From Crossiella equi (GTDB lineage: Bacteria; Actinomycetota; Actinomycetes; Mycobacteriales; Pseudonocardiaceae), in assembly GCF_017876755.1 (NCBI RefSeq), contig NZ_JAGIOO010000001.1, forward strand, positions 8,479,786-8,543,785: 64,000 nucleotides of DNA, in the 5' to 3' direction. Positions 35,670-40,688 of the stretch are shown here, in pieces. The notes below the pieces were generated by a model. It did no database searches and had not been told where the DNA came from. It saw nothing but the letters and a program-made list of their open reading frames with translations. Numbering within the stretch: the first letter of the stretch is position 1; each line of letters starts with the position of its first letter. The translations under genes were made by a program, and so were the position numbers.

Positions 35670-36953
35670 TCACCGGAACGCCGCGACCGCCCGTTCGGCC
35701 ACCGACTTCCGGATGCCCTCCAGCAGGGTTCGCGCGCGCAGCGACAGCAGGCTGAACGAGCCCGCGTCGCCCAGGCCGTGGCTGTGCTCGCACAGGCCGT
35801 TGAGGAACAGCGGCGGCACGTCCCCGGGCACGCGGTAGTCCCGGGTCACGGCCAGCACACCGTCCTCGTCGGTGTGCAGCGCCGGGACCAGCGGGGCCAG
35901 CAGCGCTGGGCAACGCTCCTGCTGCTCGCCCGCGCCGAGGTCCCGGAAGCCGGTGCCGAGCACGACCACGTCCGCGGTCACCGCGGTGCGCTCGCCGGTG
36001 TTGAGCTCGCGCAGGGCCAGCCGCACGCCGCCCGCGCCTGCCTCGACGCCGGTGATCTCGTTGCTGCCGTGCAGTTCCAGGCGCCGCACGCCGTCCACGC
36101 CGTCCTCGTAGCGCCGTACGTACAGCGCCTGCAGCACGTCCAGGTCCACGGTGGAGTAGTTGCTGGGCCGCAGCTCACGGTCCAGGCGGGCCTTGCCCTC
36201 GCGGGAAGCGGCGTAGTAGTAGTCGGTGAACTCCGGGAAGTAGGCCTGTTCGGAGAACGGGCTGTGGTCCTTCTGCCGGTAGCCGAAGCTGCGCATCACC
36301 GCCAGCACCCGGTCCGGCGAACCCGAGTGGATGTCCAGGGCGATCTCGGCCGCGCTCTGGCTCGCCCCGACCACCGCCACGGTCAGCGGACGGCCCGCGG
36401 CCTGCCGGGCCCGCGCGATGCGCCACTGGTAGTCGTTGCTGTGGAAGACCTTCGCGCCCAGGTGCGGGGCGAACACGGCCGGGATGCGCGGGGTGCGCCC
36501 GGTGCCGTAGACCAGGGTGCGGCCCCGGAAGACCTCGCCGTCGCCGGTGGTCACGGTGTAGTGGTCGCCGGTGGCCTCGATCGCGGTGGCCCGGCTGCGG
36601 TAGCGCACCACGCCGCTGAGCTGCTCGGCCACCCAGCGCACGTACCGGGCGTAGTCCTTGCGCAGTGGGAAGGCGGTGGGCACGTTGAGGAAGTCCAGCA
36701 GCCGCCCGGTCTCGTGCAGGTAGTTCAGGAAGGTGTAGCGGCTGCGTGGGTTGCGCAGCGTGGCCAGGTCGCGGCTGGGGTGGTGCTGGGTGTCCGAGCC
36801 GGACAGCAGCATGCCGGGCTGCCAGGCCGGTTCGCCGCGTGCTTCCAGGAACAGGCGGGACAGGCCCGGTGCCTCCTCCTCGATCGCGGCGGCCAGTGCG
36901 ATCCCGCCCGGGCCGAAGCCGATGCCCAGGACGTCCACGATGTCGTCGGTCAC
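35670..36953 (-). CDS. Lysine/ornithine-type N-monooxygenase (SidA/IucD/PvdA family)
   Basis: A 427-residue FAD/NADPH enzyme that hydroxylates the side-chain amine of a free amino acid. Visible are the FAD loop GIGFGPGGIALA, the NADPH loop VVGASQSAAEIA, the middle signature DHSPFSEQAYFPEFTDYYY, and the late HGLGDAGSFSLLSLRA, all typical of ornithine or lysine N-hydroxylases. The GTG has GAGGAG at 6 bp, 12 bp after the aminotransferase stop. It is the last gene of the peptide operon. Given the diaminobutyrate-type aminotransferase before it, the substrate could be diaminobutyrate, ornithine or lysine. No formyl- or acetyl-transferase of hydroxamate siderophores, and no KtzT-like piperazate synthase, was seen. 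Confidence 0.88.
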   Translation of the reverse strand: MTDDIVDVLGIGFGPGGIALAAAIEEEAPGLSRLFLEARGEPAWQPGMLLSGSDTQHHPSRDLATLRNPRSRYTFLNYLHETGRLLDFLNVPTAFPLRKDYARYVRWVAEQLSGVVRYRSRATAIEATGDHYTVTTGDGEVFRGRTLVYGTGRTPRIPAVFAPHLGAKVFHSNDYQWRIARARQAAGRPLTVAVVGASQSAAEIALDIHSGSPDRVLAVMRSFGYRQKDHSPFSEQAYFPEFTDYYYAASREGKARLDRELRPSNYSTVDLDVLQALYVRRYEDGVDGVRRLELHGSNEITGVEAGAGGVRLALRELNTGERTAVTADVVVLGTGFRDLGAGEQQERCPALLAPLVPALHTDEDGVLAVTRDYRVPGDVPPLFLNGLCEHSHGLGDAGSFSLLSLRARTLLEGIRKSVAERAVAAFR

Positions 36954-36965
36954 GGTGTGCTCCTC

Positions 36966-38246
36966 TCAGACCGCGAGGCCGAGCGCGGCGGCGTCGGTGA
37001 CCACGGTGCCGAGGGTCTCGGCGACGGCGGTCCAGTCGGGCAGGGACATGGTCAGCGGCGGCATCAGCTTGAGCACCCGGCCGTCGCCGCTGGTCTCGGC
37101 GATCACGTTGGCGCGGAACAGGTTCGCCCGGATCCGGTCCACCAGCTCGGCGCTGCCGAAGCGCAGCCCGGACATCGCGCCCCGGCCCGCGATCTCGGCC
37201 GTGCCCGAGGGCAGGGCGGCCACGATCGAGGCCAGCGAGGACCGGATGGCCGCGGCCAGCGCGAGGGCGTGCGCGGCGAAGGCCGGGTCGGCCCACCGCG
37301 CCAGCGCGGCGGTCCCGGCCACGAAGGCCAGGTTGTGGCCGCGGAAGGTGCCGTTGTGCTCACCCGGCGCCCACCGGTCGTACTCGCGGCGGATGAGCAG
37401 GGCGGCCATCGGCAACCCCATGCCGCTCAACGACTTCGACAGGCACACCAGGTCCGGGCGCAGCTCGGGGTGGCCGTCGAAGGAGAAGAACGTGCCGGTC
37501 CGCCCGCAGCCCGCCTGGATGTCGTCGACAATCACCAGCGCGCCCAGGGAGTCGGCGACCCGGCGCAGCTTGGCCAGGAACTCGCGACTGGCCACGTGCA
37601 GCCCGCCCTCGCCCTGCACGGTCTCCAGGATGAACGCGGCGGGCGGTGCGGCCGTCACGGCCTGGGCCAGGCCCGCGGTGTCGTAGGGCAGCACGGTCAC
37701 ATCGCGCAGCGGCACCCCGGCCGCACCCCGCAGCAGCAGGTTGGAGGTGGTGGCCAGCGAGCCCAGGGACACCCCGTGGAAGCCGTGCCGGAACGCGATC
37801 ACGTTCGACCGCCCGGTGACCTTGCGCGCCAGCTTCAGCGCCGCCTCCACCGCGAGGGTGCCCGCCGGGCCGGGGAACTGGAGCACGTGGTCGTCCAGGC
37901 CGCGTGGGGCCAGCACCACCTCGTTGAACCGGGCGAGGAACTCGGCCTTGGCCCGGGTGTGCAGGTCCAGGGACTGCACCGGCCCGCCGCCGGTCAGGTA
38001 CGCCACGACCGCGGCCACCATGTCCGGCGGGTTGTGCCCGTAGTTCAGGGCGCCCGCGCCGCACAGCAGGTCGGTGTAGCGCGTCCCGTGCTCGTCCCAC
38101 AGGTACTGGCCCCGCGCGCGCTCGAACACGGCGGGGAAGCTGCGGCAGTAGCTGCGGACGTTGGACTCGTGCCGCTCGAACACGGCGGCGGTCCCGGTGG
38201 TGGTGTGCTCGGTGGTGGTGTGCTCGGTGGTGGTGTGCTCGGCCAT
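36966..38246 (-). CDS. EctB-like diaminobutyrate aminotransferase
   Basis: A 426-residue class III PLP aminotransferase. The cofactor site has Asp241 in IVDDIQAGCGRTG and Lys271 in CLSKSLSGMGLPMA; both segments are close to diaminobutyrate-2-oxoglutarate transaminases (EctB, DoeD). The likely reaction is aspartate semialdehyde plus glutamate to 2,4-diaminobutyrate, giving a non-proteinogenic monomer to the synthetase. EctA and EctC are absent, so ectoine synthesis is unlikely. The N-terminus is odd: three copies of a 5-residue unit EHTTT precede the conserved region. The ATG has AGGAG at 6 bp. Confidence 0.88.
   Translation of the reverse strand: MAEHTTTEHTTTEHTTTGTAAVFERHESNVRSYCRSFPAVFERARGQYLWDEHGTRYTDLLCGAGALNYGHNPPDMVAAVVAYLTGGGPVQSLDLHTRAKAEFLARFNEVVLAPRGLDDHVLQFPGPAGTLAVEAALKLARKVTGRSNVIAFRHGFHGVSLGSLATTSNLLLRGAAGVPLRDVTVLPYDTAGLAQAVTAAPPAAFILETVQGEGGLHVASREFLAKLRRVADSLGALVIVDDIQAGCGRTGTFFSFDGHPELRPDLVCLSKSLSGMGLPMAALLIRREYDRWAPGEHNGTFRGHNLAFVAGTAALARWADPAFAAHALALAAAIRSSLASIVAALPSGTAEIAGRGAMSGLRFGSAELVDRIRANLFRANVIAETSGDGRVLKLMPPLTMSLPDWTAVAETLGTVVTDAAALGLAV
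38196..38240. repeat. Three tandem 15-bp units in the aminotransferase 5' end
   Basis: GGTGGTGGTGTGCTC (plus-strand reading) is repeated three times without mismatch, encoding EHTTT repeats from residue 3 of the aminotransferase. The unit is a multiple of three, so copy-number change would keep the frame. Confidence 0.85.
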
Positions 38247-39465: not shown

Positions 39466-39488
39466 GTCTGTCGCCTTTCCGGTGTGGG

Positions 39489-40688
39489 TCAACGGCCCAG
39501 GCGGACCGGAAGGCTCCGGTAGCCGCTGAGCATCGAGGAGTAGATGGGCAGTGGGTCCCCGGTCAGCTCGATCGAGCCGACCTGGTCGCGGAGCGCGGTG
39601 AGCATGGCGGTGATCTCGCCCTTGCCCAGGTAGGCGCCCACGCAGTAGTGCGGTCCGTGGCCGAAGGACAGGTGCTTGTTCGGCGTGCGGGCCAGGTCGA
39701 AGCGGTCTGGGTCGGGGAAGCGGGCCTCGTCCCGGTTGGCCGAGGCGTTCCACACCGTGACGATGTCCCCGGCCGCGATGCGGACCCCGTTCAGCTCGGT
39801 GTCGCGGGTGGCGGTGCGGCCGAAGTGGATGGCCGGGGTGGTCCAGCGCAGCACCTCGTCCGCGGCGGTCTCCGGGCTGACCGCACCGGAGCGCAGCGCC
39901 GCCCACTGGTCGGGGTGGCGGGTGAAGGCCAGCACCGCGCCGATCATGGACAGGCGGCTGGTCTCGTCACCGCCGAGGATGAGGCTGTAGCAGTTGGCCA
40001 CGACCTCGTCCATGGTCAGCGGCCTGCCGCCGACGGTGCCGGTGACCAGCACGCTCACCGCGTCCTCCCCCGGGGCCTTGCGGCGGTCCTCGGCGAGCTT
40101 GCCGAAGTAGCCGAGGATGTCGTTGCGGGCCTGCCACACCTCGAACGGGGACTGCTCGGCGGTGTCGGAGCTGAGCGCGGTCTTGGTCAGGCGCAGCAGG
40201 AACTCGCGGTCGGTGGCGGGCACGCCGAGCAGGTCGCAGATGACCGTGATCGGGAGCCTGCTGGCGACCTCCTCGGCGAAGTCCAGCTCGCCCTCGGCCA
40301 CCGCCTCGGCGATGAGGGCCTGGCAGTTCTCCCGCACCGCCTGGAACACCCCGGCCAGTGCCCGGGGCGCGAAGGCCTTGAGCAGCACGCTGCGCAGGTC
40401 CCGGTGCCGGGCGCCGTCGGAGACCGCGGCCATCACCCCGCTCGCCGAGTCCCCGCCGTGCAACAGCGTCGCCAGGACGTTGCCGCGGGCTGAGCTGTAG
40501 GTCCCGGTGTCCAGGTAGACCGCGCTGGCCTCGGCGAAGCGGGTGACCACCCAGAACCCCGGGGCCCGCTCCACCGGGCGGTGCCAGTGCACGGGGTCCT
40601 CGCGGCGCAGCGTGCGCCAGACCTCGGTGAGGTCCTGTTCGGCGTGCAGCCTCGGGTCGGCCAGGTTGAGCACGTCCAGGGCGGTCAT
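39489..40688 (-). CDS. Cytochrome P450 of the peptide operon
   Basis: A 399-residue P450. The I-helix motif is LGGDETSR, ExxR is present as DEVLR, and the haem loop is [10 protein letters not shown] with Cys near residue 349. The start overlaps the synthetase stop (ATGA) and uses a GAGGAGGG site inside the NRPS end, so it is made in step with it. P450s in such positions often hydroxylate or cross-link residues, free or carrier-bound. With a separate 2-oxoglutarate hydroxylase in the same operon, this one probably oxidises a different residue. Confidence 0.9.

Follow-up and report, generated by a model that had tools for sequence, protein, structure and literature searches.

Rotihibin pathways are the closest described systems to the locus considered here, and the five-module members of the family are plant growth inhibitors (PMC8552735). 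The gene table published for the rth cluster of Streptomyces scabies holds an ABC transporter pair, a thioesterase (TEII), an SDR protein, a Thr protein with adenylation (A) and carrier (T) domains, a nonribosomal peptide synthetase (NRPS), an MbtH protein, AsnO and a diaminobutyrate (Dab) transaminase, together with a fatty-acyl ligase, acyl-CoA dehydrogenases, an acyl carrier protein (ACP) and an F420 oxidoreductase; it lists no N-monooxygenase (NMO) (PMC8552735). Rotihibin C is composed of acyl-D-citrulline, (allo-)Thr, Dab, OH-Asn and Asn-ol, with Ser at residue 2 in rotihibin A, and its Dab side chain carries an additional allo-Thr; three of four prediction tools call Ser for module 3, although Dab is what is actually found (PMC8552735). 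Seven-module rotihibin-type forms, and O forms with a cytochrome P450, are listed in the same paper, in whose main text the terms 'n-hydroxy' and 'hydroxylamine' have zero occurrences (PMC8552735).

Here we describe a related locus in a 64,000-nucleotide stretch (the window) of the 9.44-Mb genome of Crossiella equi, in which minus-strand genes at positions 35670-40688 code for an NMO, a Dab aminotransferase, an AsnO-type oxygenase, an MbtH-like protein and a P450, with the gene for a 7250-aa NRPS immediately upstream, as identified from open reading frames, Pfam and NCBIfam. We consider it likely that this is an NRPS pathway of rotihibin type, with seven modules, to which a Dab N4-hydroxylase has been added, and that module 3 of its assembly line selects N4-hydroxy-Dab. 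An earlier sequence-only reading had placed here an aminotransferase, an N-hydroxylase, an AsnO-type oxygenase and a P450 with one synthetase, and all of these are found where it put them, on the minus strand; the MbtH gene is also present but was missing from its list.

Module 3 and the N-monooxygenase

Three hallmarks of rotihibin-type clusters are present in the window cluster: a second module lacking an A domain together with a Thr A-T didomain on a protein of its own; Asn-type codes in the A domains of modules 4 and 5, one after the other; and genes for a Dab transaminase, AsnO and MbtH downstream of the NRPS. The terminal reductase domain of the five-module form is not at the end of this NRPS, where a PF00975 thioesterase (TE) is found. 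By its gene and domain organization, the cluster is a coherent variant of the published rotihibin pathway family, and the comparison with characterized gene clusters proposed by the sequence-only reading thereby returns the rotihibin assembly-line family as the match. The gene block is conserved across other genomes and is therefore not a chance grouping. The comparison covered eight clusters: the NMO is present in four (the window and genomes G055, G108, and G078) and absent from four (G285, G1146, G1161, and G1226). G1146, G1161, and G1226 are rotihibin-like clusters compared by sequence, and S. scabies was compared through its published description.

The evidence that carries our reading is in A2, the A domain of module 3, where rotihibin has Dab. 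The A2 code is DVWHEGAID or DVWHEGAVD in all four clusters with the NMO and DVWHVGAVD in all four without it, using code positions and substrate meanings that we take to be standard; the choice of columns is checked by the Thr and Asn codes, which fall where expected. Columns fixed differently between the NMO-bearing and NMO-free clusters number 25 of 439 in A2, 11 of 439 in A1, 3 of 424 in A3, and 0 of 413 in A4, and A2 is at the same time the most conserved domain between the window and G055 (91%). The simplest account of the A2 change is that module 3 has been selected for an altered substrate, predicted to be N4-hydroxy-Dab.

A pathway of the following kind can be proposed. The aminotransferase, judged by its family, would make L-Dab from aspartate semialdehyde; the NMO would hydroxylate the free side-chain amine to give N4-hydroxy-L-Dab; and A2, whose pocket differs according to the presence of the NMO, would pick the hydroxylated form. 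The AsnO-type enzyme would supply 3-hydroxy-Asn to module 4 and/or module 5, module 2 would receive trans-loaded Thr, the P450 would hydroxylate the residue, probably of Val type, that module 6 holds on its carrier domain, and the TE would release the chain.

Relatives of the NMO are consistent with a Dab substrate. In a 34-row tree the window NMO is one of 21 members of a clade, and for 17 of these the fetched locus includes a class-III aminotransferase; likewise, 16 of 20 relatives of at least about 43% identity, drawn from the best-scoring matches, have an aminotransferase. The review PMC11705231 describes Apy11 of the actinopyridazinone cluster as a Dab N4-hydroxylase. The sequence-only reading had predicted a single peptide that combines Dab, N-hydroxylation of a side chain and a 3-hydroxy residue. 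Comparison supports this through the rotihibin plan (Dab and OH-Asn), the NMO clade and Apy11; the N-OH group is the component that does not appear in the main text on rotihibin (PMC8552735).

Several observations weigh against this interpretation. The principal caveat is that the NMO-bearing clusters may be one lineage and the four-against-four split possibly a single event: the four NMOs form a single clade, the aminotransferase tree leaves G078 and G285 unresolved, and the clusters come from three Crossiella-type genomes and one other genus. Part of the A2 divergence could come from domain swapping, and 11 fixed differences are present in A1 too. The lack of an NMO in G285, whose cluster is otherwise the same, depends on a locus cut by a contig end 1.1 kb past the aminotransferase, together with the finding of no orthologue elsewhere in that genome (96% complete), in which other NMOs are only 38 to 41% identical. 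Pairing of NMO and aminotransferase is on its own weak: among 11 control loci, whose NMOs are distant (28 to 39% identity) and several of which are shortened by contig ends, an aminotransferase match occurs in 4, in one case at just 25% identity. Finally, NMOs of this type appear often to serve N-N chemistry, with 9 of the same 20 best-scoring relatives adjoining a hydrazine-synthetase-like gene; such a gene is present in 1 of the 11 control loci.

The nine loci concerned (L043, L044, L046, L049, L051, L053, and L128-L130) have NMO relatives beside cupin/MetRS hydrazine-synthetase-like genes, six of them with an aminotransferase as well, and are candidates for N4-hydroxy-Dab-derived hydrazines. 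Outside the actinomycetes, a Bradyrhizobium locus (L019 7362-9989) has adjacent genes for an NMO and an aminotransferase, whose products share 46% and 54% identity, respectively, with those of the window. Two compact loci (L045 9418-19722 and L050 672-11107) consist of an NMO, an aminotransferase, a transporter-like gene and an NRPS of the form C-A-T-TE (C, condensation domain) with code DVLCIGGVG; each is a possible minimal N-hydroxy-Dab peptide pathway, and their code is unlike those of A1, A2, and A6 and is of no help in calibrating an N-hydroxy-Dab code. A1 was rejected as the N-hydroxy-Dab domain, its codes varying among the NMO-bearing clusters (DVYESGAVN, DVYETGTVN, and DVWHVSYID) with the NMO constant.

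The assembly line, its loading end and module 6

Features of the cluster are collected in Table 1. The NRPS has the domain order C1-A1-T-E-C2-T-C3-A2-T-C4-A3-T-C5-A4-T-C6-A5-T-C7-A6-T-TE, with an altered epimerization (E) domain; it has seven carrier modules, of which module 2 is without an A domain, and its reading frame is open across 7250 codons. The NRPS and P450 genes overlap by a few bases, as do the MbtH and AsnO-type genes, and the remaining intergenic gaps are 12 to 38 bases, a spacing as expected of a single transcription unit. In the divergent operon, a TEII thioesterase, an SDR protein and a Thr A-T didomain (code DFWSVGMVH) follow in that order past the right edge of the window (L009 603-6354).

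Table 1. Coordinates of cluster features in the Crossiella equi window
Feature	Positions	Strand	Basis
FAD-dependent NMO, PvdA/KtzI superfamily; predicted L-Dab N4-hydroxylase	35670..36953	-	PF13434 2.9e-81
Class-III aminotransferase; predicted diaminobutyrate--2-oxoglutarate transaminase, RthN-like	36966..38246 (about)	-	PF00202 4.5e-62
AsnO-type Fe(II)/2-oxoglutarate oxygenase; predicted L-Asn 3-hydroxylase, RthM-like	38285..39250	-	AsnO 2og5, 348 bits, 5e-103
MbtH-like protein	39247..39465	-	PF03621 2.6e-28
Cytochrome P450, P450sky-like; predicted beta-hydroxylase of module-6-bound residue	39489..40688	-	4l0e 501 bits, 2e-149
NRPS, 7250 aa	40685..62437	-	Motifs and Pfam; colinear with relatives
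Terminal TE	40688..41437	-	PF00975 1.8e-32
A6, module 7, code TVWHFGKCD	41663..43057	-	Same code in 6/6 seven-module clusters
A5, module 6, hydrophobic code DAYFWGVTF; putative P450 target	44789..46183	-	Code
A3 (module 4) and A4 (module 5), separated by C5; Asn codes DLTKVGEVG, DMTKVGEVG	47792..52195	-	Codes
A2, module 3, code DVWHEGAID; predicted for N4-hydroxy-Dab	53909..55303	-	Dab position in rotihibin; split with NMO
Module 2, C-T without A domain, for trans-loaded (allo-)Thr	56678..58267	-	Motifs, Pfam
Module 1 E domain	58298..59437	-	Core motif altered here; intact in G055, G108, G078
Divergent operon: ABC ATPase 62603-63637, ABC-2 permease from 63634	62603..64000	+	ABC pair also in the published rth gene table

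The aminotransferase scores 488 bits against the NCBIfam Dab transaminase profile PRK09264, above its cut-off of 438, and 462 bits against the ectB profile, below the cut-off of 552; its identity to the counterparts in the other seven clusters is 70 to 83%, and its start at 38246 was picked by eye with the relatives as guide. The AsnO-type oxygenase retains, in alignment with AsnO (2og5), the HxE and distal His that we take to be the metal triad of this family.

A fatty-acyl(-AMP) ligase is present in the seven other clusters, lying beside the NRPS in G055, G108, G078, and G285, and is absent from the window cluster, with a best match elsewhere in the genome of 40%. The core motifs of the E and C1 domains are altered in the window strain relative to its relatives, and C1, T-E, and C2 are 55, 65, and 63% identical to those of G055, compared with 73 to 91% for the other twelve domains; the T-E stretch is 64 to 65% identical to G055 and G108. 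With the ligase missing, these motifs altered, and identity low across C1, T-E, and C2, we take the loading end to be changed or decayed in the window strain, with intact copies in relatives. The same observations make it a serious possibility, although we would lean against it, that decay has affected part of this strain's cluster, which then yields no finished lipopeptide, or a non-acylated one; the open NRPS frame and the intact, conserved tailoring genes point the other way. Partial decay is in any case compatible with incorporation of N4-hydroxy-Dab in the relatives.

Modules 4 and 5 have Asn-type codes in all eight clusters, and the module 6 code varies with the P450. DAYFWGVTF is found in all three clusters with an in-cluster P450 and in none of the three seven-module clusters without one, in which module 6 has DADEAGLVD (G078), DAVQAGLVD (G285), or no full A core and hence no A5 code (G1226); two P450 matches of G1161 (27 to 28%) are outside the gene block and are not counted as a cluster P450. 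The P450 thus tracks a hydrophobic, Val-like module 6 code. The best solved match of the P450 is 4l0e (501 bits, against 279 bits for the next), presumably skyllamycin P450sky, and P450sky-type enzymes act on aminoacyl groups bound to a peptidyl carrier protein. We also note that the rthO column of Table 4 in PMC8552735 leaves six clusters unmarked by an X, and that for every one of them Table 5 of the paper calls Val at module 6.

Fate of the N-hydroxyl group

No acyltransferase common to the clusters was found, the one FMN_bind_2 protein of the genome is distant from the cluster, and hydrazine-synthetase matches are weak, so that the N-OH group probably reaches the peptide. Speculatively, it might there be kept as a hydroxylamine or become a hydroxamate at the position that is threonylated in rotihibin; a hydroxamate at the Dab nitrogen is possible because rotihibin bears its allo-threonyl group on the same nitrogen. 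Ring closure by the TE and an unlinked acyltransferase are further speculative routes to a hydroxamate. As a tentative extension, which we hold to be possible rather than probable, the A domain would have evolved from Dab to N4-hydroxy-Dab and the hydroxylamine would be acylated within the assembly line, by threonylation or TE macrocyclization, to give an internal hydroxamate without a dedicated acyltransferase.

Diversion of the NMO product to an N-N building block (a pyrazolidine or hydrazine) or to a separate small molecule seems unlikely. It would fit the nine hydrazine-synthetase-like neighborhoods described above, and a piperazate-synthase homologue is described as forming a five-membered pyrazolidine from a shorter substrate, with N4-OH-Dab tried as a substrate. 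The FMN_bind_2 protein (G000:C1:2630124-2630588) also has N-hydroxylamine dehydratase NohD (4.9e-10) and piperazate synthase (6e-7) as its best solved matches, but it lies 5.9 Mb from the cluster, beside an alanine dehydrogenase gene. A hydrazine-synthetase query of the window genome gives only weak matches (best 8.9e-7), all in one 528-aa frame, and no hydrazine-synthetase-like gene is present within 53 to 60 kb around the three other NMO-bearing clusters. No piperazate synthase is clustered in the window, and none was searched for in those three clusters.

It is comparably improbable that the NMO acts on ornithine (Orn) or Lys and not on Dab. Its best solved relatives do use Orn and Lys (the nearest are PvdA at 227 bits and KtzI at 208 bits), but the relationship is distant (204 to 227 bits for those acting on Orn or Lys), and the window NMO belongs to the clade linked with aminotransferases, its gene adjoining one for a Dab transaminase. 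No code of the usual Orn or N-hydroxy-Orn type is found in the NRPS.

More doubtful still is acylation of the N-OH by a GNAT encoded near the NMO, giving an ordinary side-chain hydroxamate. The window has a GNAT on the same strand at 33885-34439, about 1.2 kb after the NMO, and G078 has a two-domain GNAT directly after its NMO, and either could act on the N-OH group. However, the two differ in kind, a TetR-type gene and another small gene separate the window GNAT from the NMO, and the window GNAT has no match at 1e-10 in G055, G108, or G078. The sequence-only reading had reported neither a hydroxamate acyltransferase nor a piperazate synthase; the latter statement holds for the cluster, and the former needs to be qualified by these unshared GNATs. 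Among the fates it offered for the N-OH, N-N chemistry becomes less likely because the cluster contains neither a piperazate synthase nor a hydrazine synthetase. A siderophore finds no support, since the transporter pair is an ABC ATPase with an ABC-2 permease.

N-hydroxy-Orn leaves as a cyclic hydroxamate in several siderophores, and the odd A6 code, without the usual Asp235 and next to the TE, would suit loading of N4-hydroxy-Dab by module 7 as the C-terminal residue with release of a cyclic hydroxamate, but this is very unlikely given that the A6 code is identical with and without the NMO in all six seven-module clusters and that G1146 and G1161 have the Dab aminotransferase and no A6. In A6, Thr replaces Asp235 and Lys is at position 322, identically in the six clusters, and its substrate may lack a free alpha-amine. 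A further A6 match, in G068 (56%), belongs to a different NRPS and was left out of the code comparison.

Distribution and comparison with known systems

The pathway variant is found in few of the sampled genomes. An aminotransferase search of 390 genomes of the family (1e-130) gives seven with a match, five in NRPS clusters of this type and two in other contexts. In the genus of G668, presumably Streptomyces, a sample of 199 genomes (1e-120) gives four matches, three of them rotihibin-like clusters without an NMO. An exact A6-motif DNA pattern, which misses variants, matches 2 of 397 sampled genomes of the order (the window's own and G078); G055, G108, and G285 are not in the list for this pattern. 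Aminotransferase matches in G124 (72%), G290 (68%), and G1242 (57%) have no NRPS of this type around them and are excluded from the eight-cluster counts; those of G124 (G124:C4:312097-313347) and G290 (G290:C22:300579-301814) are each preceded by a similar 449-aa protein.

Pfam labels were also obtained for ten window genes away from the operon. An AurF-type N-oxygenase (3823-4719; 6e-99) adjoins a ferredoxin-domain flavin oxidoreductase (2323-3819), 31 kb from the operon, and the two are possibly a separate N-oxidation pathway. The window also codes for a terpene synthase family 2 protein (20288-21247) and a 1138-aa AMP-binding/PP-binding/reductase protein that is carboxylic acid reductase-like (28571-31987).

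We know of no earlier nonribosomal peptide built on N4-hydroxy-Dab. If our reading of module 3 is correct, a defined assembly line would have one of its residues linked to a formerly unassigned N-hydroxylase, and the A2 domains with and without the NMO would be a natural pair, for Dab and for predicted N4-hydroxy-Dab, that can be compared side by side. An N-OH that is kept, or turned into an internal hydroxamate, would place a metal-binding or reactive group in the rotihibin family, and the pairing of P450 and module 6 offers a second testable rule for reading rotihibin-type clusters. In the literature represented by PMC11705231 and PMC7764243, N4-hydroxy-Dab is a route to N-N compounds or an enzyme substrate, and the peptides show C-hydroxy-Dab.

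Alterins, ogipeptins and odilorhabdins have hydroxylated Dab in a nonribosomal peptide, as is predicted for the window, but with the hydroxyl on the Dab beta carbon and not on N4 (PMC7764243). Apy11 and the window NMO are both flavin NMOs, likened here by description and not by sequence; free L-Dab is the substrate of Apy11 and is only predicted for the window enzyme, and the Apy11 product feeds the hydrazine synthetase Apy9, of which the window cluster has no counterpart. The KtzI/KtzT piperazate route likewise includes an NMO distantly related to that of the window, but it uses Orn, in contrast to the Dab predicted here, and the window has no clustered KtzT. AsnO of the CDA cluster matches the window oxygenase across most of the protein with no clear difference seen, and skyllamycin P450sky (4l0e) is the best solved P450 match by a wide margin, with a predicted Val-type target in the window. 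With rotihibin itself the window shares the ABC pair, TEII, SDR protein, Thr A-T didomain, MbtH, AsnO, and Dab transaminase and, within the NRPS, the module 1 E domain, the A-less module 2, a Dab-type module 3, and two Asn modules. The rth cluster of S. scabies has five modules and a terminal reductase, compared with seven modules and a TE in the window, and its fatty-acyl ligase, acyl-CoA dehydrogenases, ACP, and F420 oxidoreductase are not seen in the window cluster, which for its part is alone of the two in having the NMO, the shifted module 3 pocket, and a different module 1 code.

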